From: Pleurotus ostreatus/Saccharomyces cerevisiae fusant
Lineage: Eukaryota; Opisthokonta
NCBI GenBank assembly: GCA_024196135.1
Contig: JAMQCK010000009.1
Location: forward strand, 215,009 to 279,008
Reading direction: 5' to 3'
DNA length: 64,000 bases
The position numbers and the translations under genes are program-made. The notes beneath the pieces were generated by a model. That model had not been told where the DNA came from and did no database searches. It was given only the letters and a program-made list of their open reading frames with translations. Of this stretch, positions 34,457-63,185 are shown piece after piece (the stretch's first letter is position 1; each line of letters begins with the position of its first letter).

Positions 34457-35566
34457 GCGGACGAAATTAAGAAGATGGTGTGACTGCGATTTGAACGCAC
34501 AAGGGCTCCCGACTGAGCCGTCACACCGAGGATAGACGATGAGCGAGGACGGGCGAACCGACAGTGGAGGTGACTGCGATGACAGATGTCAGTGGCGCAG
34601 GAGTAAGAGAAAGAAAGATAGCGACGTACAGATGAGTGAAGGCCGAGAGCGGGGCACAGTCAACGGGTCCGAATCGCCAGAAGCCGGGGGGTGTCGGAGG
34701 TGCCGCGCGTCGCCTGTGCATGCACGCGCTCGACAGCGCGGACCTGGGGGACATACGAAACAGAGTCCCACCTGCCTCTTGAGGGCGGGGACCGGCGCGG
34801 GAGGCGCCCAGCGCAGATGGTCCGCCCCTCGTCCATCGTGACCTTCAACCACAAGTGGGGTCACGACGCACCCGGGGAAACAGAGTCTGCGCCCGCTCGC
34901 ATCCCATGTTCGTTGTCGAAGCCGTTCCGCGGCGGTGTCGACTGTAGATGTTGTCAGTGCGAAGATGAAGCACACAAGACCGGCGACGTACCCTTGAGGT
35001 GTTGCCGGAGGCGGAGGGGAAGTACGAGACAGCGTCCCACCGGCCTCTTGAGGGCGGGGACTGGCGCGAGAGGCACCCAGCACAGATGGTCCGCCCGTCG
35101 CCCATCGTGACCTTTGACCACAAGTGGGGTCACGACGCACTCGAGGAGACAGAGTCTGCGCCCGCTCGCATTCCCAGGTTCAATGTCGGAGTCGGTGGCG
35201 GCGGCGGTGGCGACTGCAGGAGACGATGTCAGTCGCGAGACGATGAGCACAAGATCGGCAACGTACCCTGGAGGCGTTGCTGGAGGTAGAGGGGAAGTAC
35301 AAGACAGAGTCCCACCTGCCGCTCGGGGCGGGGACTGGCGCAGGAGGCGCCCGACGCAGAGGATCCCGCTCGACGCCCATCGTGCCCTTTAACGCTATGA
35401 GTGGGAGCACGACGCACTCGACGCGGCGGGGTCTGCGTCCGCTCGCATTCCATACTTGCTGGCCGATGTCGCCGCCCCGTCGAAGTCGTCCGTCGTCCGT
35501 GTCGATGCCGATGGGGGGAAGGGTTGAGGTATGGGTTATCCGGCGATGGACGCTTGTCTTATATAG
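34457..35566 (-). ncRNA. Structured repeat-array locus A (candidate ncRNA)
   Basis: Read on the minus strand, a TATATAAG box near 35559-35566 is followed by about 1.1 kb containing three tandem units, ending in a tRNA-like module. Each unit has stem-loop H1 (CGTGACC with GGTCACG around a 15-nt loop at 35106-35134 and 34837-34865; in the third unit CGTGCTC with GGGCACG, 35381-35411). Stem-loop H2 follows (GGCGC or GGTGC, five-base loop, GCGCC; at 34794-34808, 35063-35077, 35337-35351), then a Leu-anticodon-like loop CTCAAGA in H3. Intron-like GTACGT...CAG stretches lie between units. Minus-strand frames of 150-180 codons exist but do not match those of loci B-D. The RNA nature is inferred from co-varying stems. 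Confidence 0.45.
34477..34527 (-). ncRNA. Anticodon-armless tRNA-like module, copy A
   Basis: 51 bases. On the minus strand the acceptor stem GGTGTGA pairs with TCACACC (7 bp). The D arm GCTC/GAGC encloses AGTCGG. The T arm TGCG/CGCA has the loop TTCAAAT. The 17-base anticodon arm is missing; only a few bases join the D and T arms. The length is identical in all four copies. Confidence 0.55.
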
Positions 35567-35677
35567 CGGGCCCGCCGAATTGCTGTGCAGAGTTGTTCTG
35601 TCGATGCATGCATGAAACGAAGGGGTAGAGACCATCGGCGGAAGGAACTAGAGGGCGGAGGATTCAGCAAATCAGAG

Positions 35678-35704
35678 GCGGAGGTATAGGCGATCACTCC
35701 GCCG
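35678..35704. promoter_or_regulatory. Inverted-repeat promoter element, locus A
   Basis: GGCGGAGGTATAGG then CGATCACTCCGCC. This is the shortest and most diverged version of the GCGGAGG...CCTCCGC inverted repeat that lies upstream of the TATA box of loci A-D. Here it is about 115 bases upstream of the TATA box. Confidence 0.45.
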
Positions 35705-36912
35705 ACATTCTCAACTTCGGACCCTCCTGCTGCTTCGCGGTGCGCTACTGTCTCGCCCTAGACTGTCCCGAGAGCACTTTCGCACTGCCGGATGGGTATG
35801 TATCCCAGCGCGCATGCAAGTGAGCGAGGATGCATACGCGGGATGAGGTAGGAGGCAAGGGACAATTGATGGGGGACCGATCAGATCAACGCGGTTCGCC
35901 CTCTCCTCCTCCTTCCTCCCACCATCACCTCCGACCCCAACCAGCCTCCATGTCCCCACGCCTTCCGTCAGCGCTCTCGCCTATTTTGTCTCGATAATAA
36001 ATGCCACTGTCTGCACTTTCCTGACCCCATTGACTTCGAAATGGCCCACGACTTGCGCTCTTCGCGACGATGAACTCAGCCCAGGGCTGGCGCGCTCGAC
36101 TGGACCTGCCTGTGTATGAACTACGTATCTGGAGTCGCCTCGGGAGACTGCTATCAGTACTGTCTGCGCGCTCGCTGAAAGCGTACGCTCACGGAGGCGC
36201 CGCCTATCCAGTTCTGCAGTCAGTTAGTTCGTCAGCCTTCACTGCTTGCTGTCCTTGACCAGTGCGGGCTTGCCTTGCACATCTGAAGCTCCCCGCCGCC
36301 CATGCATTCCAACCCCCTTGTGGCCGTGTACCGCTTTGGCCTCCTGCGGTTTCTAAAGATGGAGAGCACCTTCGCTTCTGCGCACGCGCCGCTCTCTGCG
36401 CTTTCCTCCAGTCCGCCCAACCTCGTCGCGAGAATGAGTACTGCACGCCCGTCGCGATGAGCTCGCGCTGAACAATCTAAACCGCCGCCATCCTCTGCCG
36501 CCGACGCGCGAACGCTGCCGCATACACTTGGCTACCTAGCGAGCTCAGCTTCGCCGCGCACATCGCGCCTCGCAGTGCATGTCTCCCTCCTACACTATAC
36601 GTGCGCAGAGGCGTTCTACTCTCACCGCCGCCACCCCGTCATTATCTACTACTCCTCATTCACACTCGCCTGAATGCGCAAATCCACACGCCTCGAGGAC
36701 CGAGGACAAGAGCGCGTATCTCAGGTGGCAAGACACCGAAGCTCGCATCACCTTCGAGATGCGTTCAGCTCTCGCGGAAGGTTCAAACGAGGACAGAGAC
36801 GCGGGCAAGTGAAAATAGGGTCGACAGACACTCGCGAGGGCATAAGAATACCAAAGAATATTTGTATAGCATACAATTGGACGATGGAGCGCACTATCAC
36901 TACAATACGAGA
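35705..36912. other. Intergenic region between loci A and B
   Basis: No open frame with coding support was found on either strand. A pyrimidine-rich tract lies at 35890-35960. No repeat shared with other parts of the window was noticed. Confidence 0.4.
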
Positions 36913-38000
36913 GCCCGACAACGAAATGAAGAAGATATGGCCGCGAGTCGAACGCGCACGGGCTCCCGACTGAGCCACCACACCGCCGGACACGAGCCCG
37001 ATGAGGATCTGGAGTCGAAGTCCTGGTGAGGATCTGAAGCCGAAGTCGAAGTCGCAAGTCGTAGTCGGAGGACCAACACAAAACGGAGCCAGCAGCGCCC
37101 GCCCGCTCCCACCGAATTGCGAAAGCCTGGTGGGTTGCGCACTCAAGGCACTAATTCCCGCTCGAGCTCCCTCAAGTCGCAGCCGCGGTCGCAGTCGGAG
37201 GACAAGGTACGAACCGGAGTCTATTCACGCCTTGAGGGCATGACGACCGACGCGAAAGGCGTCCGACCCCAGAGCCCGCAGCGTCGCCCGCTCCCACCGA
37301 ATTGCTAAAGCCTGGTGGGTTGCGCAATCGGCGGCTGCGGGGTAGGGTCCCGCTCGTACTCCCCATGTCGCAGTCGGAGTCGTAGCCGGAGTCGCGCGTC
37401 GTAGTCGGAGGACGTCCCGAAGTGGAGTCGTATCGCGTCTTCGGCAGGCGAGGACCGGCGCAGGAGGCGCCAACTTCACGTCGTGCAGGGCCGCCCGCTC
37501 CCAGCGAATTGCTAAAGCCTGCTGGGTTGCGCATTCGCTGCCTGCGGACGTGAAGCCCACTCGAGTCCCTCGGGTCGCTTGTCGGTGTCGGAGCCCCAGT
37601 CGAAGTCGTCCGTCGTCCATGTCGTCGGCGAAGGGGCTGTCGGTGGCCTGCGTCGGCGGCGGGCGCGCCGGAGCGCAACGGATGAGGCAGCTGCATAAGA
37701 AAATTAGTACAGACGTCGTTGCGAATGATGATGAGTAAAACGTACCAAGCCGTCACCGTGAGACGAGAGGAGTGCGAGCAAGTCGCGTCAGTGTGGCCCG
37801 CCAGCTGATCGTCGCTCCCTTTACCGTCGCGCTAATGGGGGATGACGACAATCCCGGCCTCCACAGCAAACACGCCCCTCGCACTCCATACTTGCTGTTC
37901 GCAGTCGCCGCCCCGTCGAAGTCGTAGTCGTCCTTGTCGATGCCGATGTCGGTGGGGGGATGGGATGGGTAAAGCAAGGGACGGCCCTCTGCTTTTATGG
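36913..38000 (-). ncRNA. Structured repeat-array locus B (candidate ncRNA)
   Basis: Minus-strand locus, about 95 percent identical by eye to locus D and inverted relative to it. It runs from a CATAAAAG box near 37993-38000 to the tRNA-like module at 36934. H1 stems: CCCAGC/GCTGGG (37500-37526) in one unit and CCCACC/GGTGGG (37293-37319) in the next, a compensatory change with the same 15-nt loop. H2 is GGCGC/GCGCC (37457-37471) in one unit and GACGC/GCGTC in the next. H3 of that unit is CATGCC-CTCAA-GGCGTG. Compared with D it has an extra 21-base insert and an extra copy of a 27-base GACTTCGAC-type segment. Open frames of up to 194 codons exist but contain no known domain. Confidence 0.45.
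36934..36984 (-). ncRNA. Anticodon-armless tRNA-like module, copy B
   Basis: 51 bases. The acceptor stem GGTGTGG pairs with CCATATC through five Watson-Crick and two G-U pairs on the minus strand. The D arm is as in copy A. The T arm is CGCG/CGCG with loop TTCGACT. The A-box-like TGGCTCAGTCGG fits the pol III A-box consensus, and GTTCGACTC resembles a B box. Confidence 0.55.
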
Positions 38001-38104
38001 ATCTTCGGACCATCTTAGGGAAGCTGTGTATGCGTAGATGTTTGTTGATGGTAGAATGAAACAAGGGGAAAGGGAGCTGGAGGACGGAGGGTGAGTACAT
38101 CAAG

Positions 38105-38139
38105 CGCGGAGGTACTATATTTGATCACGCACCTCCGCC
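38105..38139. promoter_or_regulatory. Inverted-repeat promoter element, locus B
   Basis: GCGGAGGTA at 38105-38113 faces ACCTCCGCC at 38131-38139. The inner GATCACGC is also shared with loci C and D. It lies just over 100 bases upstream of the CATAAAAG box. Confidence 0.55.
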
Positions 38140-38577
38140 AACCAACGCCCGTGAGCCCCATCCCTCAGCCCATTCAATCTTGGCGGCAGACAACTCCGAA
38201 AGCACCTCACTTGCGTCTACGAGCCATGGGAGAGGAGAGAGCAGCGAACGGCAAGGGCGTGGTGGACGCAGGAGACAACGAGCGCTTGTTCGTGAGTGAT
38301 CGATCAAATCATTTTGATCGCTGTGCTGATCAGCCATCAAAAGCCCTGCTCCGTTCTCCTCCCTCTTGCCTCCATCAGCGAACCTATGAAATCCTACCTG
38401 CTCTCTTCATCCATCTGCCGTGTCCTTCTGAGCTCCGTTTGACGACCTCAATCACCACAGTACGACTGGAAGGGGATGCCAACTACACAACGGCAACGCG
38501 AGCAACGTCGAGGACAAGGGCGCAGCTCACGACTCTGCAATGGAACTTCATCCGCTAATACCTCCGTGGCTAGACTT

Positions 38578-38614
38578 GTATACTTTTAGCTCCCTCAGTG
38601 CACTAGAAGTGTAC
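38578..38614. repeat. Palindrome between array and gene remnant, copy B
   Basis: GTATACTTTTAG (38578-38589) and CTAGAAGTGTAC (38603-38614) form a nearly perfect inverted repeat. The same palindrome sits at the same place in duplicates C (51216-51254) and D (61521-61558). Confidence 0.6.
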
Positions 38615-38839
38615 GTTTCCAGGCCTTACAGACTGTCCAATCATCGCTGACCGAGCGCACGACCCTGCAGAGTCTGACGCCATTTCCTCGCGAGCGCAGA
38701 CGAGTACAAGCTACCCATCTATGATTCGGTTCCTCTCGGACGTATCTTCAGTATATCCCGGTCCTTTCGAGTAACCCAGCGTCTCCGAACACTAACAATC
38801 TGCCCCTCCATGATCTCGTGGGACCGAACGGATGCAGCG

Positions 38840-39110
38840 AATATATACTCTAACATCTACTGTGCGGCAGTCAACGCCCCCCTCGGGCTCCATTCAGCAA
38901 CGCATGTAGCCTCATCGTCTCGCGCTGCTCTCAGAGCCTCTTTTCCTCGTACAAGCCCACGATCACTGTTCCTCGTTCGACGGTCAGCGCCCCTAGGCGG
39001 GCCTCCGGGCCGGCCACGATGTGCCACGAGTTACGAGCCACGGGGGGCGCCTACAATCACACACATCTGCACGTCACGCTCTTTGTGACTTTCCGAATTA
39101 GGCATATATG
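38840..39110 (+). pseudogene. Divergent gene remnant, copy B
   Basis: A plus-strand stretch similar to the minus strand of 61050-61280 and, more weakly, to 51500-51700. Shared fragments such as SRAAL.ASFPR, CHEL.AT and HVTLFVT appear in mixed frames, so the copy is frameshifted. It lies divergent from array B. The original protein was not recognised. Confidence 0.35.
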
Positions 39111-39239
39111 GATTTCGCGCGCGTGAGTGGGGAAAACCCATTTCACGGGTGCCGCGGCGTTTAGAATCGATGCGCCTATCTGCAGCAACATCACTTGAGG
39201 GTGCAGGGGACTTTCTGAACCGGCAAGATAACAAGACAG

Positions 39240-40385
39240 CCTTGTAGGCGACTATATCCTTCGTGTCGGTTCGACGAGCAAAGTCAAGCTCGCGACGCAC
39301 AATCAGGCGGGGAATTACCCTAGGGCCACCGCCGCTGACTTCGACTTCGAGGATGCTACCCTCGCTCGCGGGCCGCAGCTAGCTGCTGCGAAAGGTCCAA
39401 AAAGGCCTATGACAAGAACGCAAACGAGGCGAGCCAGACGAGTGCGGTGGTCCATTCTAATGTTTTCAGGCAGTACAACCGTTCCCGCTACTTCTTCAAC
39501 ATCTGCATGTCTACGGCATGTGCGAGCTCATCGGTCACGCGCAGCATTACTTCATGGTCTTCGGGTATGTCGACAGTGGGCAGATGCTCGACAACCTGAT
39601 CATCCGCGGTCGCTTTCCCGAGCCCTACACGCTCAAACTTGTCCTTTATATCGCCTCTACCTCCGACCATCGTCACTAGGGCGACGTCGCTCACCACGAC
39701 CTCAACGCCGAGCATCATCATGACCGCCTCTGGCTTCCTCGAAATGATCAATTTTGGTAATGCCCACCCTTACGATCCCACTGCCCACCTTGACTTGCGC
39801 TTCGCAGCTCTCGAGCCTTTCTGCAAGCGGAAAACCCTGCGCGATATCGTCACTGTCACCTATGTCAGTCGCTTCTTTTTCCAGTCATCATTGGATTGTA
39901 GACCTTGCTCCATATGTAGAGGCATATTCGGCAGGTAACGCCCTCCTCGCGAGCCTAATCTCCAGTACATTCTACCGAAGGACCTCTTTTGATCTTTGAG
40001 ACACGCTTTCATGACTGACTGAGTGCTGCGGTGGGACGAACTCTCCCGCGATCGTCGAGATCGATATTCATCCAGTGTACGTGCGTATGCAGCTGCATCA
40101 CCGCGAGACGAAGACCGCTTCCAGTACCTACATACCCCACCAACGCCGACCCTGTTTCTCCTGCACAAGAGGCGTCGAGAGCACGCGTCGCTAGGAGACG
40201 CCTGACAGGCACGCCATCCCGAGGCCATCACATAGCCAGAGGGCAAATAAGCTATCCTTGGTCCGTCGCGGTGAAAAGGGTATGCATACAAGCGCCAGAG
40301 GCAATCATCGCCGCACCACGAACCATCAAGCAGTGCCCATCTGGCGAGCAGAGGACCGGGTGTCGAATGCTACTTCGCAGCGCAG
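39240..40385 (+). pseudogene. Decayed segmental copy of the KIN1 gene
   Basis: From 39244 the sequence follows the window's own KIN1 gene from about 26279 (GGCGACTATA...) through the kinase domain to about 26890. It then resumes at 40050-40385 with the part matching about 29600-29930; the 2.6 kb between is lost. Intron 2 of the parent (26493-26536) is still recognisable at about 39430-39470, so this is a DNA-level duplication, not a retrocopy. The HRDLK codons have become HHDLN and DFG has become NFG, with several stops and frameshifts. It lies just beyond inverted duplicate B, 13 kb from the parent. Confidence 0.85.
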
Positions 40386-40626
40386 AGAGGCTATGCACGG
40401 CTTCAACTCAGGCGTACGCGACTCGCTTCGAACGTATACAGGTCAATTATTGTCGACTGCATACATTGAAACGCTATCCCAATATTACAATATTACAACA
40501 TCATACTCTACAACAGAGTCCGTTCCGACATTCATCTCAGATCCGCGACGTACAAGCCCAAGCCCAAGAACAATTCCGATTCTAATGCATATGCAAAGTC
40601 CGACCGAAACGAAAGCAAAACCGAGC

Positions 40627-41736
40627 CTACTCCTGCGTCGACTCGCGGGCGCGTTTCATGCGCACGGACTCCTCGACCTCCTCCTCTTCTCCGTCGTCAT
40701 CCTGCTTCCGCTTGAGTGCCGGTGAGGTAGCTGAGAGATCGTCGGAAGCGCCAGAGACTTCAGAAGGAGCTGCAAGATCGGCAGGCGCATCGAGATTATC
40801 AGGAACATCGAGTCCGTCATCAGAGAGCGCAGCGACAAGAGCTTCAGCATTGCCAGAGGAGTCGACGGCATCGGAGGCATCGGTGACAGTAGCGGAGGCG
40901 GCAGCGACAGTAGCGGAGGCAGCGGCGACGATAGCGGGGGCATCGAGGGTTTGTTCGTCGGTGTCCGACAGCGTTGGTTCGTTGTCCGTGGTCGAAGGGG
41001 GCGCGCATAGGTTCCACAGCTCTCGATGGATGGGAGCAATTGGTTCTCCCAGTGGCTGCTGCCGTCCAGAGAAATACGATTCGAAGAGCGCGTCCACTGA
41101 CGAAAGATGCAAGTCAGCGCAAGTTACGATCGCTCGATCAAAGGAACCCACCAAGCGCATCATGCTGCAGTGCCTCAGCGCTCTCCACATCCGTCTCGTC
41201 GGGGGACTTCACCCTCGCGTCGTAGATGTTCATAGCCGTGTTAACCGCCGGCTCGAAGATCGCCTTCGCGATCTGAGGCGCGGTCTCGCGGTTCTCTATG
41301 TACGCCAAGCCGAGCAGGAGATGCAGCAGGTCGCTCTTGCACGCGTCGAGTCCTGGGGCTTTAGTAGGGACTCGGGGGTCGGCAGGCGCGCGGCGGAGGA
41401 TGGGCTCGACCATGCTGGCGAAGAACTGCGGCGACCCTAGGGTGTCGAAGAGGAACTGGACGCGAACCGTGATCAGTTTACGTCGGGAACAGCGCACAAG
41501 CAGGGGACGCACCGTAGCGAGCGGTCCATCTATGTAGATGCCGTCGGCGTATATACCTTGGGAACAGTTTCGCGAACGATCTCCTGTCCTCTGGCTATGG
41601 CGCAAGACCGGTTCCTAGCGTTGTCGCCGTGGGCCTTGAGTGCCGAGAGGCCAGGGAAGTCGTCCGGGATGATGCCGCCGGCCGCGTAGTCATGGAACAC
41701 GGCCGAGAGAATGTCGTTCTTCACTCTCCTGTTCAT
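40627..41736 (-). CDS. KRAR-tail family protein 1 (lineage-specific paralogue)
   Basis: Spliced minus-strand CDS of 317 codons. Introns: 41456-41556, 41097-41151 (phases 0 and 1). The first exon encodes an N-terminal helical domain (RVKNDILSAVFHDYAAGG). The second, 304 nt, encodes a helical core with LFDTLGS and LLHLLLGLAYIENR. The third encodes an Ala/Ser/Asp-rich disordered tail ending in KRKQDDDGEEEEVEESVRMKRARE. That basic pair flanking acids looks like a bipartite nuclear signal. It shares intron phases, exon-2 length and tail with the genes at 57856-58948 and 59392-60676. The function is unknown; nuclear location is inference. Confidence 0.6.
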
Positions 41737-49359: not shown

Positions 49360-50642
49360 TACTAAGTGCAGAAGAAGGTGTGACTGCGATTCGAACGCAC
49401 AAGGGCTCCCGCCTGAGCCATCACACCGGGGTGTCGAGCCTTGAGTGCGACGACCACAGCCAGACGAGCAGATATCCACGACCTTCGTCCGCGCTAGCGC
49501 GAGCCGACGTCGTTAATCCAAGTATCGCCTGGCGGTGGCCGCCGCGGAGAAGATACGAAGCGAACGCCATTCGCCTCTTGAGGGCGAAGGCACGGCGCAG
49601 AAGGCACCCGACCCCACGTCCCAGCCATCCCGCCCGGTCCCATCGAGGCCCCCGTAGGAGTGATGAGTGCCCGTACTCGGCATTCGGGAGTGAGGCCGCC
49701 GCTCGTATTCCTGGTCGCAGTCGAAGCCGGTGCCGGTGCCCATATCGAGGTCGGTGTCGTAGTCGGAAGGGTGTGCGGATAACGACGACAACATCGCGTT
49801 GGGCGCGATGGCCGGTGCGGGAGGCACCGAGCCTAGATCCCAGATGCTCTGTCCGCGCCCCACCGAGGCCCCCCGCGAGGAGTGGTGGGTAGCACGAGCC
49901 CGGGCAGCGCTGGGTGTGGACCTCGCTCGCAGTCCTCCATGTCGTAGTCGGAGTCGTAGTCGGGGGACGATGACGAGACGAAGTCAACTCGCGGGGCTTC
50001 GTTGGAAGGCGCGATGACCGGCGCGAGAGGCGCCCGACGCAGACCCTCGCAGTCCGCCCACACCCCATCGAGGCCCCCGTAGGAGTGATGGGTCACATGT
50101 GCTCGGAGATGCGAGGAAGGTCGCGTCCGCATTCCCCATGGGGGCTGTCGGTGGCGGTGGTGAGGGCGTGCGCGACTGTGGGTTAATTTCAGTCGAGCGA
50201 TGGAAAGCTGAAGTAGGCGACGCACTCGAAGGGGAAGGGCAAATAGAGTCGCGCTGGATGTTGCCCACCGAGGTCGTCCGTCGTCCGCTTGAGGTCAAGC
50301 TGAGCGAGGGCAGCAAGGAGACAGCATAAAAGAGAATGTCAGTTGAGCGATGATGAGTAGAAAGCGAGGACGTACGAGTAACTTGGTCTTGAAGGTCGTC
50401 GCCGAGGAGTGCAAGCATGCTGCGCACAGTGACCGCCACGCCGCCCATCGCTCCCTTTAACTAGCACTAATGGGGGAGTGCGACGCACTCAGCGACGCGG
50501 GTCTACGCCCTGCCTACACTCCATACTTGCCGGTCGAAGTCGCCGCCCCGTCGTAGTCGAAGTCGATAGTCGTCCATGTCGCTGTCGTGGGGGGAAGTGT
50601 TGAAGATGGGGATTTCCTGGCCATGGTCCCCGGCTTATATAG
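49360..50642 (-). ncRNA. Structured repeat-array locus C (candidate ncRNA)
   Basis: Minus-strand locus from a TATATAAG box (about 50635-50642) to the tRNA-like module at 49377. Three units are clear. H1 stems in + coordinates: 50065-50070 with 50088-50093 (CCCATC/GATGGG), 49859-49864 with 49884-49889 (CCCACC/GGTGGG) and 49639-49644 with 49662-49667 (U-G pair on the minus strand). H2 stems: GGCGC/GCGCC (50020-50034), GGTGC/GCACC (49814-49828), GGTGC/GCGCC (49594-49608). H3: ATCGCG-CCCAA-CGCGAT (49793-49809) and TTCGCC-CTCAAGA-GGCGAA (49570-49588). Between them lie GACTACGAC-type blocks shared with B and D. H1 loops differ completely from those of B/D, yet stem position and length are kept. Confidence 0.48.
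49377..49427 (-). ncRNA. Anticodon-armless tRNA-like module, copy C
   Basis: 51 bases. The acceptor stem GGTGTGA/TCACACC is 7 bp. The D arm is GCTC-AGGCGG-GAGC. The T arm TGCG/CGCA has loop TTCGAAT, so GTTCGAATC matches the core of a pol III B box. No anticodon arm is present. Confidence 0.55.
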
Positions 50643-50749
50643 TTTTTCGTGAGCTGCTGTGCAGATATATGTCGCAATCGCTCAAGGATATATTTGGGAG
50701 GGGGAGGTCCGAGGGATCTGAAATGTTTTGATGCTTGAGCGGAATGTAT

Positions 50750-50780
50750 GCGGAGGCATTGGGGATCACGCACCTCCGCC
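50750..50780. promoter_or_regulatory. Inverted-repeat promoter element, locus C
   Basis: GCGGAGG at 50750-50756 faces CCTCCGCC at 50773-50780, with GATCACGCA between, about 110 bases upstream of the TATA box. Further upstream (50930-50975) several TGATC/GATCA motifs are clustered, as in loci B and D. Confidence 0.55.
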
Positions 50781-51215
50781 GTCCAGCGTTCGCCCAAAAT
50801 TTCCTGCACATCTCGCCATCCAGATAGTGCTGGGAAACGCTTGCCATGATTGAGAGAGCCGAGAAAGCGGGAAGCGTACGAGCGGCGAGGATGTGGTGGA
50901 CGTGGGAGACAACGAGCGCTTGTTTGGGCAGGATTGGTAGCGCGCTTTGATCGCTGCAGGGATCAATGATCAAAAATCCCTGCTCCGTTCTCCTTCCTCC
51001 TCCCATCATCGGCGGACCTCATGCACATCCCGAATGCATACTTATCTCGCACTCCTCATACATATGCGCAGACCGACCGTTGCACGTGTGACATCCTGAG
51101 TAACTCAAAGGATGTGAATTACTCCATCATCAGTGCTCAGCCTCGACCACAACGGCGACGACGACGGTGTCCTAGTCTGATGAGATAACCTCCGTCTGCC
51201 TCCGCACCTAGACTC

Positions 51216-52627: not shown

Positions 52628-52759
52628 TAATATATCAACGAGCTGGCGAAGAGACCGGGATGCGGACGAATACGAAGCGATGACAGTGGCGAGAGCGACA
52701 GAACACGACGCGGCGACGGGAGAGACAGTCGTGGTGAATGGTGGGGAGGGCGGCTTTCC

Positions 52760-53554: not shown

Positions 53555-53569
53555 GGTAAAGATATGGAA

Positions 53570-56548
53570 TTACCGCGCGCGGAGTATGGAGATCACTGGA
53601 GGTGAGGAGTCGTGCCAATGAACCAGGTCCGCGGAGGTTATTTGTTTAGCGCGGATCGGCGCGGTCACATGATCGAGCGGTCGCGTCGCGGCGCGCCTGG
53701 TCTTGTCATGCGCGAGCGCGAAGTCAATGATCACATCGGCGTCACTTGGGGGCACCGACAGAGGAAGGAATGTTTTTATTCGATTCGCGAATACATCCCA
53801 CATTGACATATGCAGAACTGGAAGTCTATAGCGGTGAGAAGAACGTCCTGTTCGAAGAGACGCGCAGTACGAGATAGCACGCCGAGAGAGAGACAGTCAG
53901 CAAGAACTAGGAGGACCAGAGTGAGAGACAAGATAGTGATGAGAGAAGCTGACCTCGGCAACGACAGCAATGGTGTACACAATCATCATCAAGACGTGAA
54001 TAAACGAAGCTGCCGAGGTCACGCTCTCGGGAGGGGCGCCGAGGCGGTGACAATGACTAGAAGTAAGCTTTCTAAAGCAGAACTGCATGTCAGTATTAAT
54101 CAGACATACGACGGTGTGGCTCGGCAAAGTTATTCTACCAGACCCCGGAAAGGCTGGCAGGCTCGACGCAGGCCCGAGGTCGTAATACATCGCGCGGAAG
54201 ACTAAGCGCTCGTCCCAAAAGATCTACAGAGCTTGCACATGGGGGCCGCAGTGCTGGAAAAGCGTAGCGCGGAGTGAGAAGCAGAGTTTGCGAGTGAGTA
54301 TCATTGGCTTCTTGTCGGGAGCTGAGGTACACCGTCGTCGTTTCGCTTCACCGTACTGAGTCCAAGGGACGGCGTCGCGCGTGAGAATGCTCCTTGCAAT
54401 AATAGATGGCTGCGCGTGCAACATCCATAGGAAATGAATATATTCAGCGGCCGGAGCCGAGAAGCGGTGGGTGAACCGAAGGAGTCTTCAAAGGGGTGAG
54501 AGGAGACAGGCATGACGGGGAGGCATCTGTTGTCGTGCATGAAGCCCGTTGGTGATTGCGGAGTTGCCTGAGACGCCTAGACGGATCGTCAGTCAGTGAT
54601 ATGGGGGGTCGACTGGATGGTGAACGAACGAGTACGAGCTATGTACGGGCTGATCACTGCCTAGGGATAGCGACCACGTCGGCGCCGGCAGACTTGCGGC
54701 AGACTGACTGCACGATTCGATCAGCGTCGCATTGGGGAGCGTGAATTTCGAGAATGCTGGCAGTTTCAGGGAGCGAGGGTAGCGGAGGAGGCTAAGGGTG
54801 GTCCAGTTGAGTGCGACGCAAGCCAGACTTGAGCTCATCCACTACTACAGCACGCCGTCAGGAGAAGAGGTTGAATTCCGTTGAGGTTGTACGCCGTATC
54901 GAGGCCGTCGGATTATAAAAGGTGAAGCACCATGGTCCGCGTCATCTTAAGCGGAGGGAGGACGAGAGAACGGTGGCGACAAGGCCGAAGGCCGTGGTGG
55001 TAGGAGGAAGGAGCAGACTACGGCGGTGATCTGATGGGTGCCAACGGTTCTTGCCTCCTCCCGTCATCGCGCCGGTCTCTGTTTAAATTTGACCCGGGTC
55101 CTCTTTATGAAGCACTTCTGAAATATGTCCTCGATGAGTAACAAGACCGCATTCTCGAGAAAGCCTACGGCGGCGTAGGACATCGCGAAGAAGCCGGAAG
55201 ATTTCAGTGTATGTTATTATCAGAGCGGCGGAAGTTCGCGCATTCACCAACCTTAGCTGCGTCCGATCCGCTGGACCTCCGCCTCCAAGTCCCTTCTGCT
55301 AATTGCCGTCATCGTACCACTGCTTGCCGCCGTCAACAAGGAATGTGTGTATAGCACTTCGACGCACGCGCAGGTCAGGATCAACGGAGAAGTTCGGCCT
55401 CCCCCACCTATCCTCACCTCGAGCCGCAGGGTCACACAAATCCTTCGCTCAGATTCCACGGAGGACAGCACGCTGCGTCTCCCCTACATATATGATTATA
55501 TCTGCTAGACACTCTGCAGGTTAGCATTGATCGCGAGCTTCTGAGTATGACCAGGCACTAACGGGTTGTAGGGCGTACACAGCCCCATTGCGTACCATAC
55601 GACGAGTCCCCAAACTCAAACTCGTGTTCGAACCATCAGCCCTCAATACGAAGGTCAACCGCGAGTACATCTTGACTTGAGGATAGGATCACCCTACTCT
55701 CGTCGTCGACCGTCCTGGAAGCCGTGTTGCCGAGTACATCCTCGTACTGGCAAATCCATATCTCATGGTTCGTCCTTTGCGCAGGACGCCCTTGTGATGA
55801 TGCTAATGGTCTTGCAGGAGAAGACAGCTCGTGCTCACCGACCCCTACCGCAGGTGCTTCCGGCGCAAGCTGACCTTGACGCTACTCAAGCGAAAGCCAC
55901 ACGAGTGGCAAGATGCAGTTTATGCAGAGGCCGCAAGCGCCTGTGAATAGTCCCACTGTCCAACTACCCGAGAAGGCCTAGATACCCATTGCGCGCTGCG
56001 GCCACCGAGGCAGTGGAGACTGTTTAGAAGACGAAGACGAAACCGCGACCGGAGCACGGGGGTCGTAAAGAATCGGATGAAGACCGCGCGGGCTGACAGG
56101 GAGATGGAGTTCGCGCCACAAGGATCCTTCGTGCTATTCAGCCAGTAGGCGCCAATGGGCGGTGGCGGTCGCAAGAAGCAGGAAGGAGCGAGGTCGTGAG
56201 CGTGTTGGGATGCGCTATGTCTGCCGCGCTTGGACGGTACTGTACGTCTCGAACATTGCATCTTGCTCGTATCCTCCTCAACATAGCGATGGCCCCTCGC
56301 GGGCTCTGCCGCCCGTAAGCTGCACGAGTGGACCATCGGCGGACAGCTTTTATGAGGGCGATGGACTAGTGGTCATCTGCAACGACCTCGGTATGAGCAC
56401 GAGGTACGTGGTTCCGTTGGCCGTGTCGTCTCATGAATGACCTAGCTACCTGGAGTACCTCTTGGTCGACTCGACTCGGTGGCAACAAAGACTGGCGAAA
56501 CACGGTGTCCATGGGTCGGAGTTCCTATACCTCGGGACCTCGGCAACC
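53570..56548. other. Region without a supported gene
   Basis: About 3 kb. Scattered hydrophobic minus-strand stretches (for example SLTLVLLVLADCLSLGVLS near 53890-53940 and FIHVLMMIVYTIAVVAEV near 53950-54000) hint at a decayed multi-pass membrane gene with short exons. I could not build a consistent model. Open frames at 55677-56440 have no recognisable content. Confidence 0.35.
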
Positions 56549-56555
56549 TATAAAG
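56549..56555 (+). promoter_or_regulatory. TATA box of the small secreted protein gene
   Basis: TATAAAG 86 bases upstream of the ATG at 56635. Confidence 0.6.
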
Positions 56556-56634
56556 GCTGAATACGCGCAAGACATCCTTTCGCATCGCATCATCCTCACC
56601 TCCGCAGCTCACGACCCATCTAACAACGCTCGAC

Positions 56635-57119
56635 ATGTTCAACCTCGTGTTCCTCTCTTCCGTGCTTGCCCTCGCTGGTAGTGCTGCCGCGCAGTCGTAC
56701 TATGCAGCCGGTTAGTGTCTAATCGCGCTTGATGCCTTGCGCATTCGCTCATCCTTCCGCAGCCAATATCTATGGCGCAGACGGCGTCGAGACCAGTCCG
56801 TGCCAGTGCGACAACGCCCCCGTCGGCGGCGCCGCTGTCGCTCGCGGTATCCGCCAGGAGCTCGGGAAGGACCTGTGCTGCGCGAAGGTCACCGTCAACT
56901 GTGAGTTGACCGCAAGCGCGGTCGTACTAGTAGAACGTTGAACTTCTGAGTGACTGACTTTCCGCAACAGCTGGTGGCAATTCGATCCAGACCGTCTTCA
57001 ATGATATTTGCGACTCGTGCGATTCACACAATATCGCGTTGGAGACCGAGGCGTGGACGTCGCTGACGAATATGACCGAGGATGGGTCTTTGAACGTGTT
57101 CTGGACGGTGCAGGAGTAA
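56635..57119 (+). CDS. Small secreted double-psi beta-barrel-like protein
   Basis: Spliced CDS of 120 codons. Introns: 56711-56762, 56901-56970. The signal peptide is MFNLVFLSSVLALAGSAAAQ, cleaved near residue 20. The mature chain of about 100 residues has Cys residues in pairs (PCQCDN, DLCCAKV, DICDSCDS). The order (Tyr-rich start, CC pair, TVFNDICDSCDS, late TSLTNMTEDGSLNVFWTVQE) follows the barwin/expansin/RlpA-like double-psi beta-barrel pattern: ..V.D.C..C...D/A......L......G.L.V.W. Such small proteins are secreted, often bind polysaccharide, and lack catalysis. It has one N-glycosylation site (NMT). The TATA box and small size suggest a strongly regulated gene. Confidence 0.62.
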
Positions 57120-57855
57120 GCAGGTGATCTCAAATAACAATCTACTAGCTGGATAAAGGCTACCACTCGCGGGCTTGAAAGCAAGCGCGTCGCGCTTGAC
57201 TTGATGTTCGAATGCGAACGGTTTGACTTGACTCCTGCTAGTCGATTCCTCTCCTTTGATGCACGGATCAGCTTCAACACGAATGTAAGGCTACATCACC
57301 GAGGCCGCAACGCAAGTATTGATTGCGGGCGGACGCAGACACGGCCCCTCGGGTGGTTTATGGATTTATTCCTATTCTCTCGCTCGGCATACTCTTGAAA
57401 CTCTCGACGGACGGACGGTCAGCAAATTGTCGATATCGAATGTCTCCTGCACCAGCCTCTCGAGGGTCAGCTCATTTTTTCTGTACTTCCTTTTGTCGCC
57501 TCCCGCGCCGTCATCTCTTGAGCACGCCGCACGGATGCAAGAGGTAAGACAAGGCCTGCCTAATCGGCAACAGCGCACACGTTCACACGGCCGCGAATCC
57601 AAGATTCCGATTCGCCCCGAAATGAAGCCCTACATTGAGCGAAGCAAGCGCGACGTGAGCGAGGGACAATCATGGGATGGGTATAGGATCAGAACTCGAT
57701 TCCAGGGAGCTTACATATCATATTACTATCCACAGCGGAGCCTACACATTATACTATCTACGACCTCGAACGACACGAACGGAACAGCCATACCAAGGAC
57801 AAAGAAACCATGCCAATATCACGATGCATCCATACCAACGAGAAACCCCATAACC
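57120..57855. other. Intergenic region
   Basis: 3' sides of two convergent genes. Plus-strand frames here lack coding support. Confidence 0.45.
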
Positions 57856-58948
57856 TCAACTCTCTCCAGTCACCTTGCGCGCGCGCTTGTCGCGGGACGC
57901 CTCTCCATCCCCTTCTTCCGCCTCGTGACCATCATCCTTCAAGCCGGAAGACTCCAGGCTGAATCGGGACTGCGCTTCAGAGACGGAGAGGCTGTCTCGG
58001 CGGGTGCAGTGGGTGGCTCCTGTGCTTGAGCCCGCATCAGGGATAGACGCTAAGACCTCAGAAGGAGGAGTGGGCGGCGAAGCGGTGACACGTAGTTTCC
58101 TCGACAGCAGGTCGTGGTATGAGAGCGTAGAAGGCATCGGAGCGGCAGATAGCACAGCGTCGGCAATTGGAGGCGCGCCGTGTCCCAAGACGTAGAATGC
58201 GTAGTACGAGAGCGCCAAAGGGTGCGACGAAGGGCAAGCGGGCTGGGGCGCTGAGTGGCAGGCATTGATCAGCTCGATGTCTGGGGTAGGCATTAGCCAG
58301 TGATAGCATGCAGCGTGTGAAGACAACTCACGTTGCATGCGTATCTCCTGCATCTGTGTGTCGAGAGTGTCCGCGGCAGAGGCAGACTTCGCGGAGAATA
58401 CCCAATTTTCGTAGGCATAGATGACAGACCAGACCAGGGCGCGGTAGATGCCGTCCGCGACATCCCGCGCGCGGGCTTGGTCGCGACGCGTAAGAGATCC
58501 CAGATAAAGGTAGAAGAAGTCGGCGTCGGCGAGTGTCTGAGCCTCCGAGAGCGGTACGTCCGAATCGTTCGCGGAGCCACGGACTAGCTCAAGGTATGGT
58601 TGAATGAGGTTGGCTGCCACGGAGTCGCTCAGGAGAGCCGAGTCGAGATACTGAGTAAGGATGAAATCCACGGCATACGAGCTCGGCAGCGCAGGGACCC
58701 ACCTGAGCGAGATCGCCAGGAATGTGATTTTCAGCGTCAATCTTGGCGTTCACAAGGGCGAGCTGCGCGGTAGCGCGGCCTTTGTCGACGAGCCTCTGCC
58801 ACATGAATTCATTTTGAAGTTCCGAAGCGTCGGGAAGCTCTTCCTTGGTTGGAATGACGTCCAGTTTGCCGCTCTTGGTAAGCTTGTCGACGAAGACGGA
58901 TGCCTCGCGGCCGAAGAGGAAGGCAGGGCGACTGGATTGCGAGACCAT
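57856..58948 (-). CDS. KRAR-tail family protein 2
   Basis: Spliced minus-strand CDS of 329 codons. Introns: 58651-58702 (phase 0) and 58281-58331 (phase 1). Exon 1 is 246 nt, exactly as in the neighbouring gene at 59392. Exon 2 (319 nt) encodes a helical core with QYLDSALLSDSVAANLIQPY and DFFYLYLGSLTRRDQ. Exon 3 begins with IELINACHSAPQ and ends in a polar tail with DKRARKVTGES. Head-to-head with the next paralogue, so they may share a promoter. Function unknown; the basic tail suggests nuclear import. Confidence 0.62.
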
Positions 58949-59391
58949 GATGCAAGGAAGTAACGCGCGATCAATACGAATCGCGATGCGGCTATGGGCA
59001 AGCCAAAACAAGTGCAAGCAAAGACAAACATTTGTGTGCATTTATGGCGCAGGCATGTTTGTTCGCCCGTGCTCTGCGTCTACTTGGAGTCTGATGAGGA
59101 AGTCGAGACTGCCGGACGCGTTACAACAATCTTGCAGGACTCATCTGAATTCCGAGCATCAATGTCATCGGAACAGACCGCAGTAAGAGCAACTTCAGCT
59201 TTTTCACAGGAGTTGGCTGCATGAGGCCTCGGGTGTCAGGAAAGAAGCAGATGACATCATTTTGCTTGTGCCGGTCTGGTTCGAACCCTGAGCACTCTTT
59301 GGTCTTGTTGAAGCATGTTTGTTACTTTCGAGAGCGACAACGGCGTCACAGCGATCGCACGCACCACGGCTTACCCGCTACCCTCACCCAC
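58949..59391. promoter_or_regulatory. Shared divergent promoter of two paralogues
   Basis: 443 bases between the start codons of two head-to-head members of one family. A tRNA B-box-like GGTTCGAACCC occurs at about 59278-59290 but no tRNA fold surrounds it. No TATA box is evident. Confidence 0.45.
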
Positions 59392-60676
59392 ATGAGCATC
59401 CAGAGTACCACCGCCTTCTATCTGAATCCTATCGCAAAGCGGAGGATCGGCGCTGCCGTCTACCAGATGGCTCGGAACCTGCCTGTTGAGCCTGACAAGG
59501 CGGTCCTCGTCAATCGCACTGGCGACAAAGTGTACTGGGAATGCACTATCAACCTGGGCTATCACGTCGCCGTCAACGCCGTCAACTTGTCCATCCAGCG
59601 CAATTCTGCTCACTTTGGCGGACCTGCTCTAGCCTCGGTACGTCGGGTGGTCTTCGTGGCCTCTTCTCGCTGACGAAGTCACGACGTTCCCAGTACCTCC
59701 CGAATCTGCTTCTAAGCTCCTCCGTTACTGCGGCACTCATGGAAGGCTACATCGATACTATCGCCATTGGAGCCGGCCTCGAATCGCCCGTCGGGGCTAA
59801 CACCGCTGCTCGTGCTCAGTTTTTCTTCTATTACCTGGGCGTCCTTTTCGAGCGCGACCGTGACCGGGGTCGCATCGTTGCCCTCCGGATCTTCTTCCCT
59901 CTGGTCAGGATCGCTATCCTTATGAACGACAAAGTCAACCGCGATCCCGCGAACCGCTTGGGCGAGGAAGCGCAGCAGCATCATATCCGCACCTATCGTA
60001 AGCATTCTGCACGTAGACTGCTCCGCATACCATCTCTGACCTCGCTATAGATGATGACCTTCTCAAGGCCTGCCAGTCTGAGCCCCAGACACGTCTTGTT
60101 GCTCCCCCTCCCGAACCGCTCTTCGTCTTTCTAGATACCGTAGGGCGGGAACCCGCCACGACGCTACCGGAAACCGAGCCCGTTGATTCCGATGCCCTGG
60201 ATACTTCGGTCGCTGCCGGCCCTCCCGCCTTCGCCACGCTGATCTCCTCTGCGTCGTCACTTGCTGCTATCGCTGAACTTGCTGCTATCGACGCTGCCGA
60301 GGACCTCGATACAGACGAACTAGATCTAGTCGTATCGTTGCTCACAGCGCCGCCTTTCTCCGATGCCGATCATGGCTCTATCGCGCCTAGCGAGGGTGTC
60401 GACACCCACACTCGTAACACGATCTTCACGTCTACCTCCGCCTCGTCTGCCTCTATCGATGCGGTACACGCAGCTGCAGGATCTTCCGAGGGAAACGATC
60501 TCGAGGAGCATGATGTAGCTGCTGCAGTCTTCGCGTCGTCTTCACTGTCGCTTACTTCGCAGACGCCTTGGGCTTCGCCTGCCATGAAGAGGAAGGCTTG
60601 CGGTGGGAATTCGGAGGACGTCGAAGAGGTTCTTCATAAGCGCGCTCGCGAGGCTGCGAATGGACAGGTGTCCTAA
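59392..60676 (+). CDS. KRAR-tail family protein 3
   Basis: Spliced CDS of 391 codons. Introns: 59638-59693 (phase 0), 59998-60050 (phase 1). Exon 1 is 246 nt and exon 2 is 304 nt, matching its paralogues. The core has YLPNLLLSSSVTAALMEGYID and FFFYYLGVLFERDRDRGRI. Exon 3 begins DDLLKACQSEPQ, equivalent to IELINACHSAPQ of its neighbour, then runs into an Ala/Ser/Asp-rich tail ending MKRKACGGNSEDVEEVLHKRARE. The tail matches that of the protein at 40627-41736 best. No known domain was recognised. Confidence 0.65.
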
Positions 60677-60807
60677 GGCTGAGCGCCGAGGCAGGAGTAA
60701 TGGGTTTCGAAAGCATTTCGCTGTGTTATTACTATTGTATGTTTGTGTGTAATTGGTTATAATGTACTGTATGTCTCGTTCTGTATGTAGCAAATCGTTA
60801 CCTAGCG

Positions 60808-61290
60808 TCATTTATCTTGCATATGCATCGTCTCCGTCCGCTGTCCGCTCCTCGGCACGTCAACGCGAAAGCCACGAATCTTCACATACCTAATTGCGTT
60901 GTAATGCCACGCTTCAGCACTGGTCATGTCGGCAGGACGAACGCGTGCAGTCAATGCATAGATGTGCACGTAGAGCCCTGGGATACCCATGTGGATGCGG
61001 ACTTCGCCGAGCGCGAGATTCAAGAGATGCCGAGCTTGCCAGGTCACGAACAGCGTGACGGTGCGAGCGTGCGATTGCAGGGGCCGCTCGCGTGGCCAGT
61101 AACTCGTGGCATATCGTGGGACATGGGACGGCCCGAAGTCCCGCCCAATGGCCTAGCCGTCGGACGAGGAGCAGTGATCGTGGGTTTGAACGAGGGAAGG
61201 AGGCTTGGAGAGCAGCGCGAGACGATGAGGTTATATGTGTTGCTGAATGGTGACCGAGGGGGACGTTGGCTGCCGCACGATAGATGAAAT
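60808..61290 (-). pseudogene. Divergent gene remnant, copy D (longest)
   Basis: A minus-strand stretch ending in a clean open frame (TWQARHLLNLALGEVRIHMG, VHIYALTARVRPADMTSAEAW, NAIRYVKIRGFRVDVP; stop at 60808). Upstream it passes into sequence shared with copies B and C (CHEL.AT; THxHVTLFVT) but the frame breaks. The intact end looks like real coding sequence. It may be the last exon of a living gene or a remnant. No family was recognised. Confidence 0.4.
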
Positions 61291-61520
61291 ATATTCATTG
61301 CAGGCCTTCGGTCACCCCGTAATCGTAGAAGGACACGTTGAGAGTGATTGGGGGCGCAGGGTTGGTCGGAGAGACCGGGAGATACTGAAGATGTCGAAGA
61401 GGAGCGTGACCATGGATGGGAACCTTGTAGTCGACCGCGCTCGCGAGAAAATAGCGTCAGACGCTGCTGGATTGTGCGCTGTGATCAGCGATGATTGGAC
61501 AGTCTGTAAGGCCTGGAAAC

Positions 61521-61558
61521 GTACACTTCTAGTGTGCTGAGGGGAGCTAGAAGTATAC
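61521..61558. repeat. Palindrome between array and gene remnant, copy D
   Basis: GTACACTTCTAG (61521-61532) and CTAGAAGTATAC (61547-61558) pair at 11 of 12 positions. Confidence 0.65.
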
Positions 61559-61996
61559 GAGTCTAGTCACGGAGGTATTAGCGGATGAAGCTCCGTTGCA
61601 GGGTCGTGAGCTGCGTCCTTGTCCTCGATGTTGCCCGCGTTGCAGTTGTGTAGTGAGCATCCCTCTTCAAGTTGTGATATGGTAATTCGGGTAGTCAGAC
61701 GGAGCTCAGTGGGACACAACATATGGATGAAGAAAGTATGTAGGATTTCGTAGGTCCGCCGATGGAGGCAGAGGGAGGAGAACGGAGCAGGGCTTTTGAT
61801 GGTTGATCAGGACAGCGATCAAAATGGTTTGATCGATCACTCGCGAACAAGCGCTCGTTGTCTCCTACGTCCACCATGCCCTTGTGGTTCGCTGCTCTCT
61901 CCTCTCCCACGCCTCGTAGACGCAAGAGAGGTGCTTCCCGAGCTTTCTGCCGCCAAGATTCACTTGGCTGAGGGATGGGGCTCACGGTCGTTGGTC

Positions 61997-62030
61997 GGCG
62001 GAGGTGCGTGATCGAATATAGTACATCCGC
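61997..62030. promoter_or_regulatory. Inverted-repeat promoter element, locus D
   Basis: GGCGGAGGTGCGTGATC (61997-62013) faces ACATCCGC (62023-62030), about 110 bases upstream of the TATA box. The block is the most conserved sequence upstream of loci B-D. A cluster of TTGATC/GATCAA motifs lies at 61800-61840. Confidence 0.55.
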
Positions 62031-62136
62031 GCTTGATGTGCTTACTCTCCGTCCCCCAGATCCCTTTCCCCTTGTTTCATTCGACCATCAACAAACATCG
62101 ACGCCTACACAGCTTCCCCTAGATGGTCTGAAGATC

Positions 62137-63185
62137 TATAAAAGCAGAGGGCCGTCCACTGCTTTACCCATCCCATTCCATCCCCCCACCGACATCGACA
62201 TCGACAAGGACGACTACGACTTCGACGGGGCGGCGACTACGACCAGCAAGTATGGAGTGCGGGGGGCGTGTTTGATGTGGAGGCCGGGATTGTCGTCATC
62301 CCCCATTAGCGCGACGGTAAAGGGAGCGACGATCAGCTGGCGGGCCACATCGACGCGATTTGCTCGCACTCCTCTCGTCTCACGGTGACGGCCTGGTACG
62401 TTCTACTCACCATCACTCGCAACGGCGTGGGTACCAACTTCTCTATGCAGCTGCCTCATCCGTTGCGCTCAGGCCACCGACAGCCCCTTCGCCGACGACA
62501 TGGACGACGGACGACTTCGACTGGGGCTCCGACATCGACAAGCGACCCGAGGGACTCGAGTGGGCTTCACGTCCGCAGGCAGCGAATGCGCAACCCAGCA
62601 GGCTTTAGCAATTCGCTGGGAGCGGGCGGCCCTGCACGACGTGAAGTTGGCGCCTCCAGCGCCGGTCCTCGCCATCCGAAGACGCGATTAGACCTCACTT
62701 CGGGACGTCCTCCGACTACGACGTGCGACCCCGGCTACGACTTCGACTGCGACATGGGGAGTACGAGCGGGACCCTACCCCGCAGCCGCCGATTGCGCAA
62801 CCCACCAGGCTTTAGCAATTCGGTGGGAGCGGGCGACGCTGCGGGCTCTGGGGTCGGACGCCTTTCGCGTCGGTCTTCATGCCCTCAAGGCGTGAACAGA
62901 CTCCGGTTCGTACCTTGTCCTCCGACTGCGACCGCGACTGCGACTTGAGGGAGCTCGAGCGGGAATTAGTGCCTAGAGTGCGCAACCCACCAGGCTTACG
63001 CAATTCGGTGGGAGCGGGCGGGCGCTGCTGGCTCCGTTTCGTGTTGGTCCTCCGACTACGACTTGCGACTTCGACTCCGGCTGTAGATTCTCACCGGGCG
63101 CGCGTGTGCCCTGCGGTGTGGTGGCTCAGTCGGGAGCCCATGCGCGTTCGACTCGCGGCCATATCTTCTTCGCTTCGTTGTCAGC
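62137..63185 (+). ncRNA. Structured repeat-array locus D (candidate ncRNA)
   Basis: Plus-strand locus: TATAAAAG at 62137-62144, then a first stem-loop (TCGTC 62293-62297 with GACGA 62328-62332 and inner TCCC/GGGA) enclosing CCATTAG...GTAAAGGGA, a motif also found in A-C. Three units follow. H1: CCCAGC/GCTGGG (62594-62620), CCCACC/GGTGGG (62801-62827), CCCACC/GGTGGG (62986-63012), all with 15-nt loops AGGCTT...AATTC. H2: GGCGC-CTCCA-GCGCC (62649-62663) and GACGC-CTTTC-GCGTC (62857-62871). H3: CATGCC-CTCAA-GGCGTG (62878-62894). Units are separated by GACTACGAC/TTCGACTGCGAC blocks. It ends with the tRNA-like module plus a short CTTCTTCGCTTCGTTGTC tail, after which the four copies diverge. Confidence 0.5.
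63115..63165 (+). ncRNA. Anticodon-armless tRNA-like module, copy D
   Basis: 51 bases. Acceptor GGTGTGG/CCATATC (two G-U pairs), D arm GCTC-AGTCGG-GAGC, T arm CGCG-TTCGACT-CGCG. TGGCTCAGTCGG fits a pol III A box. No T-run terminator follows closely. Confidence 0.55.

Follow-up and report, generated by a model that had tools for sequence, protein, structure and literature searches.

What kind of gene starts at a TATA box, runs through tandem stem-loops, and ends in something resembling a truncated tRNA? Four loci of this layout, A, B, C, and D, lie in a 64,000-nucleotide (nt) stretch of fungal DNA, hereafter the window, which spans positions 215009-279008 of one contig (JAMQCK010000009.1, labeled C1167 in our analysis) in a 40.05-Mb assembly of 1277 contigs; names such as C610, C580, and C387a denote loci elsewhere in that assembly. 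Because a 608-amino-acid open reading frame (ORF) in the window is 91% identical to a Schizophyllum commune protein, with 97% of the length covered, we take the host to be S. commune or a very close relative. A preliminary description of the window had proposed that the four loci form one undescribed family of structured RNAs. Its observation is confirmed and its interpretation is partly supported: the structured noncoding RNA gene family is real, with high confidence in the structure, and we found no description of such RNAs in fungi in the open-license literature searched. We lean toward the reading that RNA polymerase II (Pol II) transcribes these genes into structured RNAs, modular and spliced, whose 3′ ends RNase P and tRNase Z would form by cutting at the tRNA-like module; such ends would be a counterpart, independently evolved, of those of MALAT1 and NEAT1.

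The tRNA-like module and its copies

In each of the four loci the preliminary description had placed, in order, an upstream inverted repeat, a TATA box, tandem units, and a 51-nt tRNA-like module, and both the order and the coordinates proved right. The modules occupy these window positions:

34477..34527, minus strand: locus A tRNA-like module, with a 7-bp acceptor and both D and T arms and without an anticodon arm
36934..36984, minus strand: locus B tRNA-like module, for which a long hairpin has the lowest computed energy
49377..49427, minus strand: locus C tRNA-like module
63115..63165, plus strand: locus D tRNA-like module, where the lowest computed energy again belongs to a long hairpin

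We aligned 18 copies of the module from across the assembly, giving 17 distinct rows. The fold has 16 pairs, of which 7 form the acceptor stem, 5 the D stem, and 4 the T stem, and in all 18 copies 4 nt stand between the D and T stems in place of an anticodon arm. Among the 17 distinct rows, 97.4% of the cells are paired, compared with 39 to 54% when the partners are slid, and the D and T stems are paired in every case. Both sides have changed in 6 of the 16 pairs, a number reached by 1 of 500 shuffles, and no shuffle of 500 reached the observed covariation score. The compensated changes exchange U-A with C-G and G-C with A-U in the acceptor stem, C-G with U-A in the T stem, and G-C with A-U in the D stem. 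Moreover, all 18 modules retain GG in the D loop and TTCRA in the T loop, and we take these letters to be the contacts that hold the tRNA elbow together.

A competing long-hairpin fold of the module was considered and rejected. As a whole it also beats its controls (92.8% paired, with 0 of 500 shuffles reaching its score), partly because the acceptor stem is common to both folds. The pairs found only in the hairpin (14-39, 15-38, 16-37, and 17-36) fail to form in 1, 8, 3, and 4 of the 17 rows, respectively, whereas the D and T stems are never broken; the tRNA-like fold was therefore retained.

A 34-place module pattern allowing up to 3 mismatches matches the window exactly four times, once in each of loci A to D (0.00 expected from 100 shuffles), and the whole genome 14 times, with no match for a reversed control pattern. 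A looser pattern allowing up to 2 mismatches yields 25 genome sites against 8 for its control. Eighteen of the 25 were retained as modules: 17 with 0 or 1 mismatch, together with C1:300632, the partner in a head-to-head pair. The remaining seven sites (C375, C579, C749, C813, C1002, C1012, and C1214) have 2 mismatches to the looser pattern and are probably chance matches for the most part, since the control also yields 8 sites at that limit. The family thus extends well beyond the four loci originally described, and S. commune strains other than the host carry relatives of these elements. With no mismatches allowed, the module pattern had no match in the viral_contigs collection, and the exact pattern had none in the prokaryote genome collection.

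The module is distinct from canonical tRNA genes, which have an anticodon arm and a full cloverleaf, and ARAGORN found no tRNA anywhere in the window. Rfam searches at permissive thresholds (window 33000-64000, E ≤ 5; 11 loci, E ≤ 1; module D, E ≤ 10) returned nothing near the families' cutoffs, in agreement with the claim of an undescribed family; the only tRNA model among the three matches listed for module D was tRNA-Sec (11 bits, E of 5.8). Whereas Pol III genes have a terminator of at least four T residues just downstream, 17 of the 18 modules have no T4 tract within 40 nt downstream; the module with one is C1:301889. The trailer word CTTCT occurs within 9 nt downstream of 8 of the 18 modules.

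Gene bodies, promoters, and predicted introns

Seventeen of the 18 modules follow a structured body of one of three kinds; the remaining locus is unassigned. Type I, the window type, comprises A, B, C, D, C610, C580, C387a, and C1a, together with a subfamily consisting of C387b (L074:1801-3401) and C610b (L071:6901-9301), in which a TATA box and units are present. Type II loci are C1174, C840, and a head-to-head pair on C314; type III loci number five, all on contig C1, four of them forming two head-to-head pairs. In blastn comparisons among types I, II, and III there was no match of 80 nt or longer, yet all carry the same module. The body upstream of the module in C858 (L079:3715-3765) fits none of the three types, and this locus may represent a fourth type or stand by itself as a single copy. 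C840 and C1174 (L077 and L078) share 91% identity across about 4 kb, a span reaching well past the RNA gene, and may be two haplotypes instead of two genes; for this reason, 18 is a count in the assembly and not of certain genes. Four of the five type III genes and two of the four type II genes stand in head-to-head pairs (L080, L084, and L076) with modules 1.2 to 2 kb apart, an arrangement that suggests shared two-way promoters.

In the window, the gene bodies and their upstream regions contain the following features:

35677..35703, minus strand: locus A upstream inverted repeat, GGCGGAG ... CCTCCGCC
35558..35565, minus strand: locus A TATA box TATATAAG
35301..35439, minus strand: locus A structured unit 1 (P1 stem, H1, H2, H3)
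35214..35266, minus strand: locus A predicted intron 1, GTACGT ... CTGAC ... CAG
35027..35162, minus strand: locus A structured unit 2
34942..34991, minus strand: locus A predicted intron 2
34758..34893, minus strand: locus A structured unit 3
34574..34629, minus strand: locus A predicted intron 3
38106..38139, minus strand: locus B upstream inverted repeat, GGCGGAGGTGCGTGATC ... ACCTCCGC
37992..37999, minus strand: locus B TATA-like box CATAAAAG
37691..37745, minus strand: locus B predicted intron, GTACGT ... CTAAT ... CAG
37421..37556, minus strand: locus B structured unit, basal stem CTTCACGTC/GACGTGAAG
37213..37350, minus strand: locus B structured unit, basal stem CCCGCAGC/GCTGCGGG
50750..50781, minus strand: locus C upstream inverted repeat
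50634..50641, minus strand: locus C TATA box TATATAAG
49984..50125, minus strand: locus C structured unit
49778..49923, minus strand: locus C structured unit
49558..49699, minus strand: locus C structured unit
61997..62031, plus strand: locus D upstream inverted repeat, second arm with one mismatch
62137..62144, plus strand: locus D TATA box TATAAAAG
62396..62450, plus strand: locus D counterpart of the B intron, in which both splice sites (donor and acceptor) remain and the branch word is weaker; missed by the strict search
62564..62699, plus strand: locus D structured unit, basal stem CTTCACGTC/GACGTGAAG
62770..62907, plus strand: locus D structured unit, basal stem CCCGCAGC/GCTGCGGG

Units were recognized by script, which found 24 of them in 9 of 10 type I elements; C1a gave none with the expression used. 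Each unit starts near GAGCG or a variant, continues with a stem P1 bearing an apical hairpin H1, then H2 (5 bp with a loop of 4 to 6 nt), and then H3. All of the H2 variants previously listed (GGCGC/GCGCC, GGTGC/GCACC, and GACGC/GCGTC) and all of the H1 variants are present, but H1 is merely the tip of the longer basal stem P1, and neither P1 nor the composite hairpin H3, which follows H2, had been described. P1 differs strongly among unit groups, reading CTTCACGTC/GACGTGAAG, CCCGCAGC/GCTGCGGG, GCGCAGA/TCTGTGC, or CCTCGCA/TGCGAGG. When the strands of P1 were swapped among 11 unit groups (24 units), own strands paired at -22.0 kcal/mol and swapped strands at -14.3 kcal/mol, and 0 of 20000 permutations were as low; the corresponding count for H3 was 130 of 20000, and the H2 test covered one group.

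Consensus folds point the same way. Changes on both sides of a pair were observed in 5 of 42 pairs for A units, 7 of 41 for B/D, 14 of 45 for C387b/C610b, and 12 of 40 for C; with the 24 units taken together, they numbered 12 of 22. Type II showed them in 3 of 49 pairs and type III, where 97.1% of cells are paired, in 16 of 154. These counts lean toward structure because the folds were fitted to the same alignments. The swap test, the consensus folds, and the pairing of the module together bear out the earlier claim that pairing is kept while sequence changes. In C387b and C610b, apical loops GAAA, GCGA, and GTGA, which we take to be of the GNRA type, sit atop changing stems. These two elements are 93% identical, with 10 changes in 424 unit positions (2.4%) and 36 in 309 elsewhere (11.7%). 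Positions of the second kind include linkers and a portion of an intron-like stretch, and a single unit of the three accounts for 8 of the 10 unit changes. The linkers abound in CGAC on the RNA strand; in locus D it occurs 37 times on that strand compared with 4 times on the opposite strand and 12.8 times in shuffles, and CGACnnCGAC occurs 15 times compared with 0.20 in shuffles.

The gene anatomy agrees with the Pol II transcription suggested in the preliminary description, in its TATA-type boxes, GT-AG introns with branch-point words, and scarcity of T4 tracts after the modules. TATA[AT]A words stand at a plausible upstream distance in 12 of 14 loci scanned, the exceptions being B, whose box reads CATAAAAG, and C858, an ambiguous case, and the distance from TATA box to module is about 0.5 to 1.2 kb where measured. 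Just upstream of the TATA box, CTGCACAGC is present in 8 of 10 promoters inspected, across type I and II loci with otherwise unmatched bodies; it occurs in the promoters of A and C (within 35540-35760 and 50620-50830), and B and D carry ACACAGC. Farther upstream, distal blocks (AACGAGCGCTTGTT and neighbors) are conserved among B, C, and D at window positions 38245-38385, 50879-51019, and 61752-61891 and resemble distal control elements.

Introns, which the preliminary description did not mention, were sought as GT[AG]NGT ... CT[AG]A[CT] ... [CT]AG on both strands of 19 elements, with 200 resamplings. Eight were predicted on the RNA strand and none on the opposite strand, compared with a resampled mean of 0.88 and maximum of 6. 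They fall in 6 of the 19 elements, with three in A and one each in B, C580, C387a, C1174, and C840.

Proposed RNA maturation and competing readings

Taken together, these features are consistent with the following sequence of events for the four loci as members of a Schizophyllum multigene family of noncoding RNA genes. Pol II would start about 30 nt past the TATA box, and the short introns, as their splice signals suggest, would be spliced out, leaving a chain of self-contained units (P1 with apical H1, H2, and H3) separated by unpaired, CGAC-rich linkers. Transcription would proceed beyond the 51-nt module, which is predicted to fold as a tRNA elbow and acceptor stem lacking the anticodon arm. 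RNase P would then cut before the module and tRNase Z probably after it, giving a mature RNA whose 3′ end has no poly(A) and freeing a tRNA-like RNA of about 51 nt. We judge, with moderate confidence, that the 3′ ends are probably formed at the tRNA mimic. A scaffold-like function is the most likely one, in which tandem units and repeated linkers might offer multivalent protein binding, but our confidence in it is low.

The closest parallel, drawn already in the preliminary description, is with MALAT1 and NEAT1, which have been stated to be the only long noncoding RNAs (lncRNAs) employing the tRNA-processing machinery (PMC12941219); their 3′ ends arise by RNase P and RNase Z cleavage (PMC12941219, PMC10869381) and are protected by a triple helix (PMC12941219). 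The parallel holds for the layout of a TATA-started Pol II gene for a long noncoding RNA with a tRNA-like 3′ element. It does not extend to the fungal loci in other respects, as these comprise 18 modules at about 0.5 to 1.2 kb from the TATA box, contain tandem units, include several genes with predicted introns, and have no anticodon arm. In the 130 nt upstream of each of the 18 modules, the longest T run is 4 and the longest A run 3, so that no tracts for a MALAT1-type triple helix were seen. The mascRNA/menRNA family of Rfam gave no match at the thresholds above for module D (the only module searched singly), the window segment, or the 11 loci. Because the triple helix, the anticodon arm, and the Rfam match are all lacking, we do not file the fungal loci under the MALAT1/NEAT1 family, although by analogy their ends may work in the same way. 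Viral 3′ tRNA-like structures are another case of a tRNA mimic ending a longer structured RNA; the likeness lies in the position of the mimic, and the loci described here differ in being multicopy chromosomal genes with TATA boxes and predicted introns.

Several results weigh against the Pol II reading or the structures on which it draws. For the module, the number of pair types does not exceed that of shuffles (277 of 500 reach it), the acceptor stem has a C-C mismatch in type II modules and C858, and the minimum-energy fold is of the cloverleaf type in only 6 of 18 copies, with A and C included and B and D excluded; in the other 12, the cloverleaf lies 2.3 to 7.0 kcal/mol above another fold. 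The covariation expected from the preliminary description did not emerge under a simplified tree-aware null applied to the 18 modules alone, in which 1 of 16 pairs reached E < 0.05, and that pair was U-A versus C-C; alongside this outcome, we note that the alignment columns hold few independent changes. In the units, only 5 of the 11 groups had P1 strands for which the own partner was the single best, and swapping the upper stem gave no significant result (2078 of 20000 permutations, using fixed-length windows in which H1 was not isolated). The folding energy of D as a whole is ordinary (z of -0.88, and +1.14 for the reverse strand, from 20 shuffles each). CGAC is hardly enriched in A (14 versus 11.0), and CGACnnCGAC is absent from both type III genes counted. 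No module was seen in the close type I relatives C387b and C610b, and the predicted introns are not eight independent cases, because they belong to three homologous groups. Points of the same tendency concerning reading frames are taken up below with the alternative to which they belong.

What becomes of the module is the first matter on which readings diverge. If the mature RNA kept it as a 3′ cap, for protection, CCA addition, or export, RNase P would not remove it; the elbow letters conserved in all 18 copies would suit such a cap, as would the want of a triple helix to shield a freshly cut end, but the CTTCT trailer fits a processed precursor slightly better, and we regard this alternative as unlikely. 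The module might otherwise act as DNA, as a Pol III A/B box, a TFIIIC site, or a boundary site, given that its D-loop and T-loop letters fit what we take to be the A-box and B-box consensus. Of the explanations weighed here, this is the one to which we give the least credence: the U-A/C-G and G-C/A-U changes in the acceptor stem are compensated where no box lies, the boxes are about 10 nt apart, below the usual spacing, T4 tracts are nearly absent downstream, and 17 of 18 modules stand at the 3′ end of a recognized body and share its strand (no body being recognized for C858). The tandem array of long imperfect hairpins also invites comparison with precursors of microRNA-like RNAs (milRNAs), in which the hairpins of a Pol II transcript would be diced and the module would help to end the precursor. 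Fungal milRNAs can derive from tRNA-containing transcripts cut by RNase Z; in Neurospora, mature milR-4 is flanked by two tRNA-Ala genes, and T tracts are present in each of the four confirmed milR genes (PMC3547838). The likeness is that of a tRNA moiety serving to process a neighboring hairpin RNA in a fungus; the difference is that milR-4 involves real tRNA-Ala genes, Pol III, and T tracts, whereas here the module is armless and 3′-terminal in TATA-started genes, some with predicted introns. From one unit group to another, the type I stems have diverged strongly in sequence without losing their pairing, and selection on shape therefore suits them better than selection on guide sequence; the argument does not extend to type II, whose stems are sequence-conserved. 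We consider a milRNA precursor distinctly unlikely.

The units might instead encode repeat peptides, with RNA structure incidental, and here the evidence is mixed. Once its three introns are spliced out, A has an open frame of 292 codons, two exon lengths (222 and 312) being divisible by three, and C610, C387b, and C610b have open frames of 348, 310, and 314 codons, longer than in resampled sequence (P of 0.004 to 0.005, 0.009 to 0.012, and 0.006, respectively). Differences between unit A_269 and four other A-type units are distributed 39/32/54 over the codon positions, so that 54 of 125 fall in third positions. Public S. commune gene models (P0006, P0007, P0009, and P0010) cover relatives, and P0010 enters the module and apparently splices out of it. 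Set against these points, the models' frames differ between strains, and Pfam gave no match for four element ORFs. Substitution phases are near flat among B, D, C610, and C580 (B-C580, 61/58/44) and in C610b-C387b (17/17/12), and the A-type units give 105/120/128 for codon positions 1/2/3 in the open frame (15 pairs, summed) and 29/46/34 in six equal-length pairs (summed). Each comparison with C580 contains 6 or 7 one-nt indels, and gaps of 2 nt and 1 nt within the unit set the two kinds of A-type unit apart. Contrary to the preliminary description, which held that open frames are not shared, B and D have one common stop-to-stop frame (37172-37831, minus strand, and 62310-62948, plus strand); it is lost in C610 and C580, so that the statement stands in general. 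B, D, and C580 have stops in each of the three frames, and C610 has one frame open throughout. Among the compared copies there is no clear codon signature or conserved frame with a third-position excess, in line with the earlier reading of the loci as noncoding RNAs, and we hold the protein-coding alternative to be very improbable.

In the public annotation, the "hypothetical proteins" EV714DRAFT_277547, GGG16DRAFT_115694, EV715DRAFT_293335, and EV714DRAFT_271301 overlie element relatives in conflicting frames. These four S. commune models are probably misannotated RNA genes.

Returning to the reading of Pol II genes with ends cut at the module, we can also tentatively entertain a broader possibility, at slightly less than even chances: that Schizophyllum evolved long structured RNAs as a whole class, built on no fewer than three unrelated bodies, for which an armless tRNA mimic serves as a portable 3′-end-forming cassette. 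If so, forming 3′ ends by the tRNA machinery would be a general and repeatedly used way to nonpolyadenylated lncRNAs and not a vertebrate peculiarity, and a fungal family of like layout, without a triple helix or an anticodon arm, would mean that this route had more than one origin. It would also offer a genetically tractable mushroom for studying how such ends form and survive and would add a large structured RNA family to fungi.

Duplications in the window

The four dispersed loci named in the preliminary description are real, but B and D are not independent. They lie in a 2.2-kb inverted duplication (36889-39123 and 61008-63216) whose copies are about 22 kb apart and 86.6% identical over 2262 aligned columns; one 629-nt arm is 97% complementary. 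Retroposition was raised as an origin when B and C610 were seen to lose similarity near the module end, and it was rejected: B, D, and C580 remain similar for about 40 to 180 nt past the module end and far upstream of the TATA box, and DNA-level duplication therefore fits.

Elsewhere in the window, segments 26565-26878 and 39483-39794 (74%) and segments 29577-29911 and 40036-40365 (68%) form two diverged pairs of duplicates whose order is kept, and the second set may have arisen as a duplicate that has since decayed. Tandem repeats of 24 nt occur at 31805-31913 and 32066-32146, within an open frame of 401 codons.

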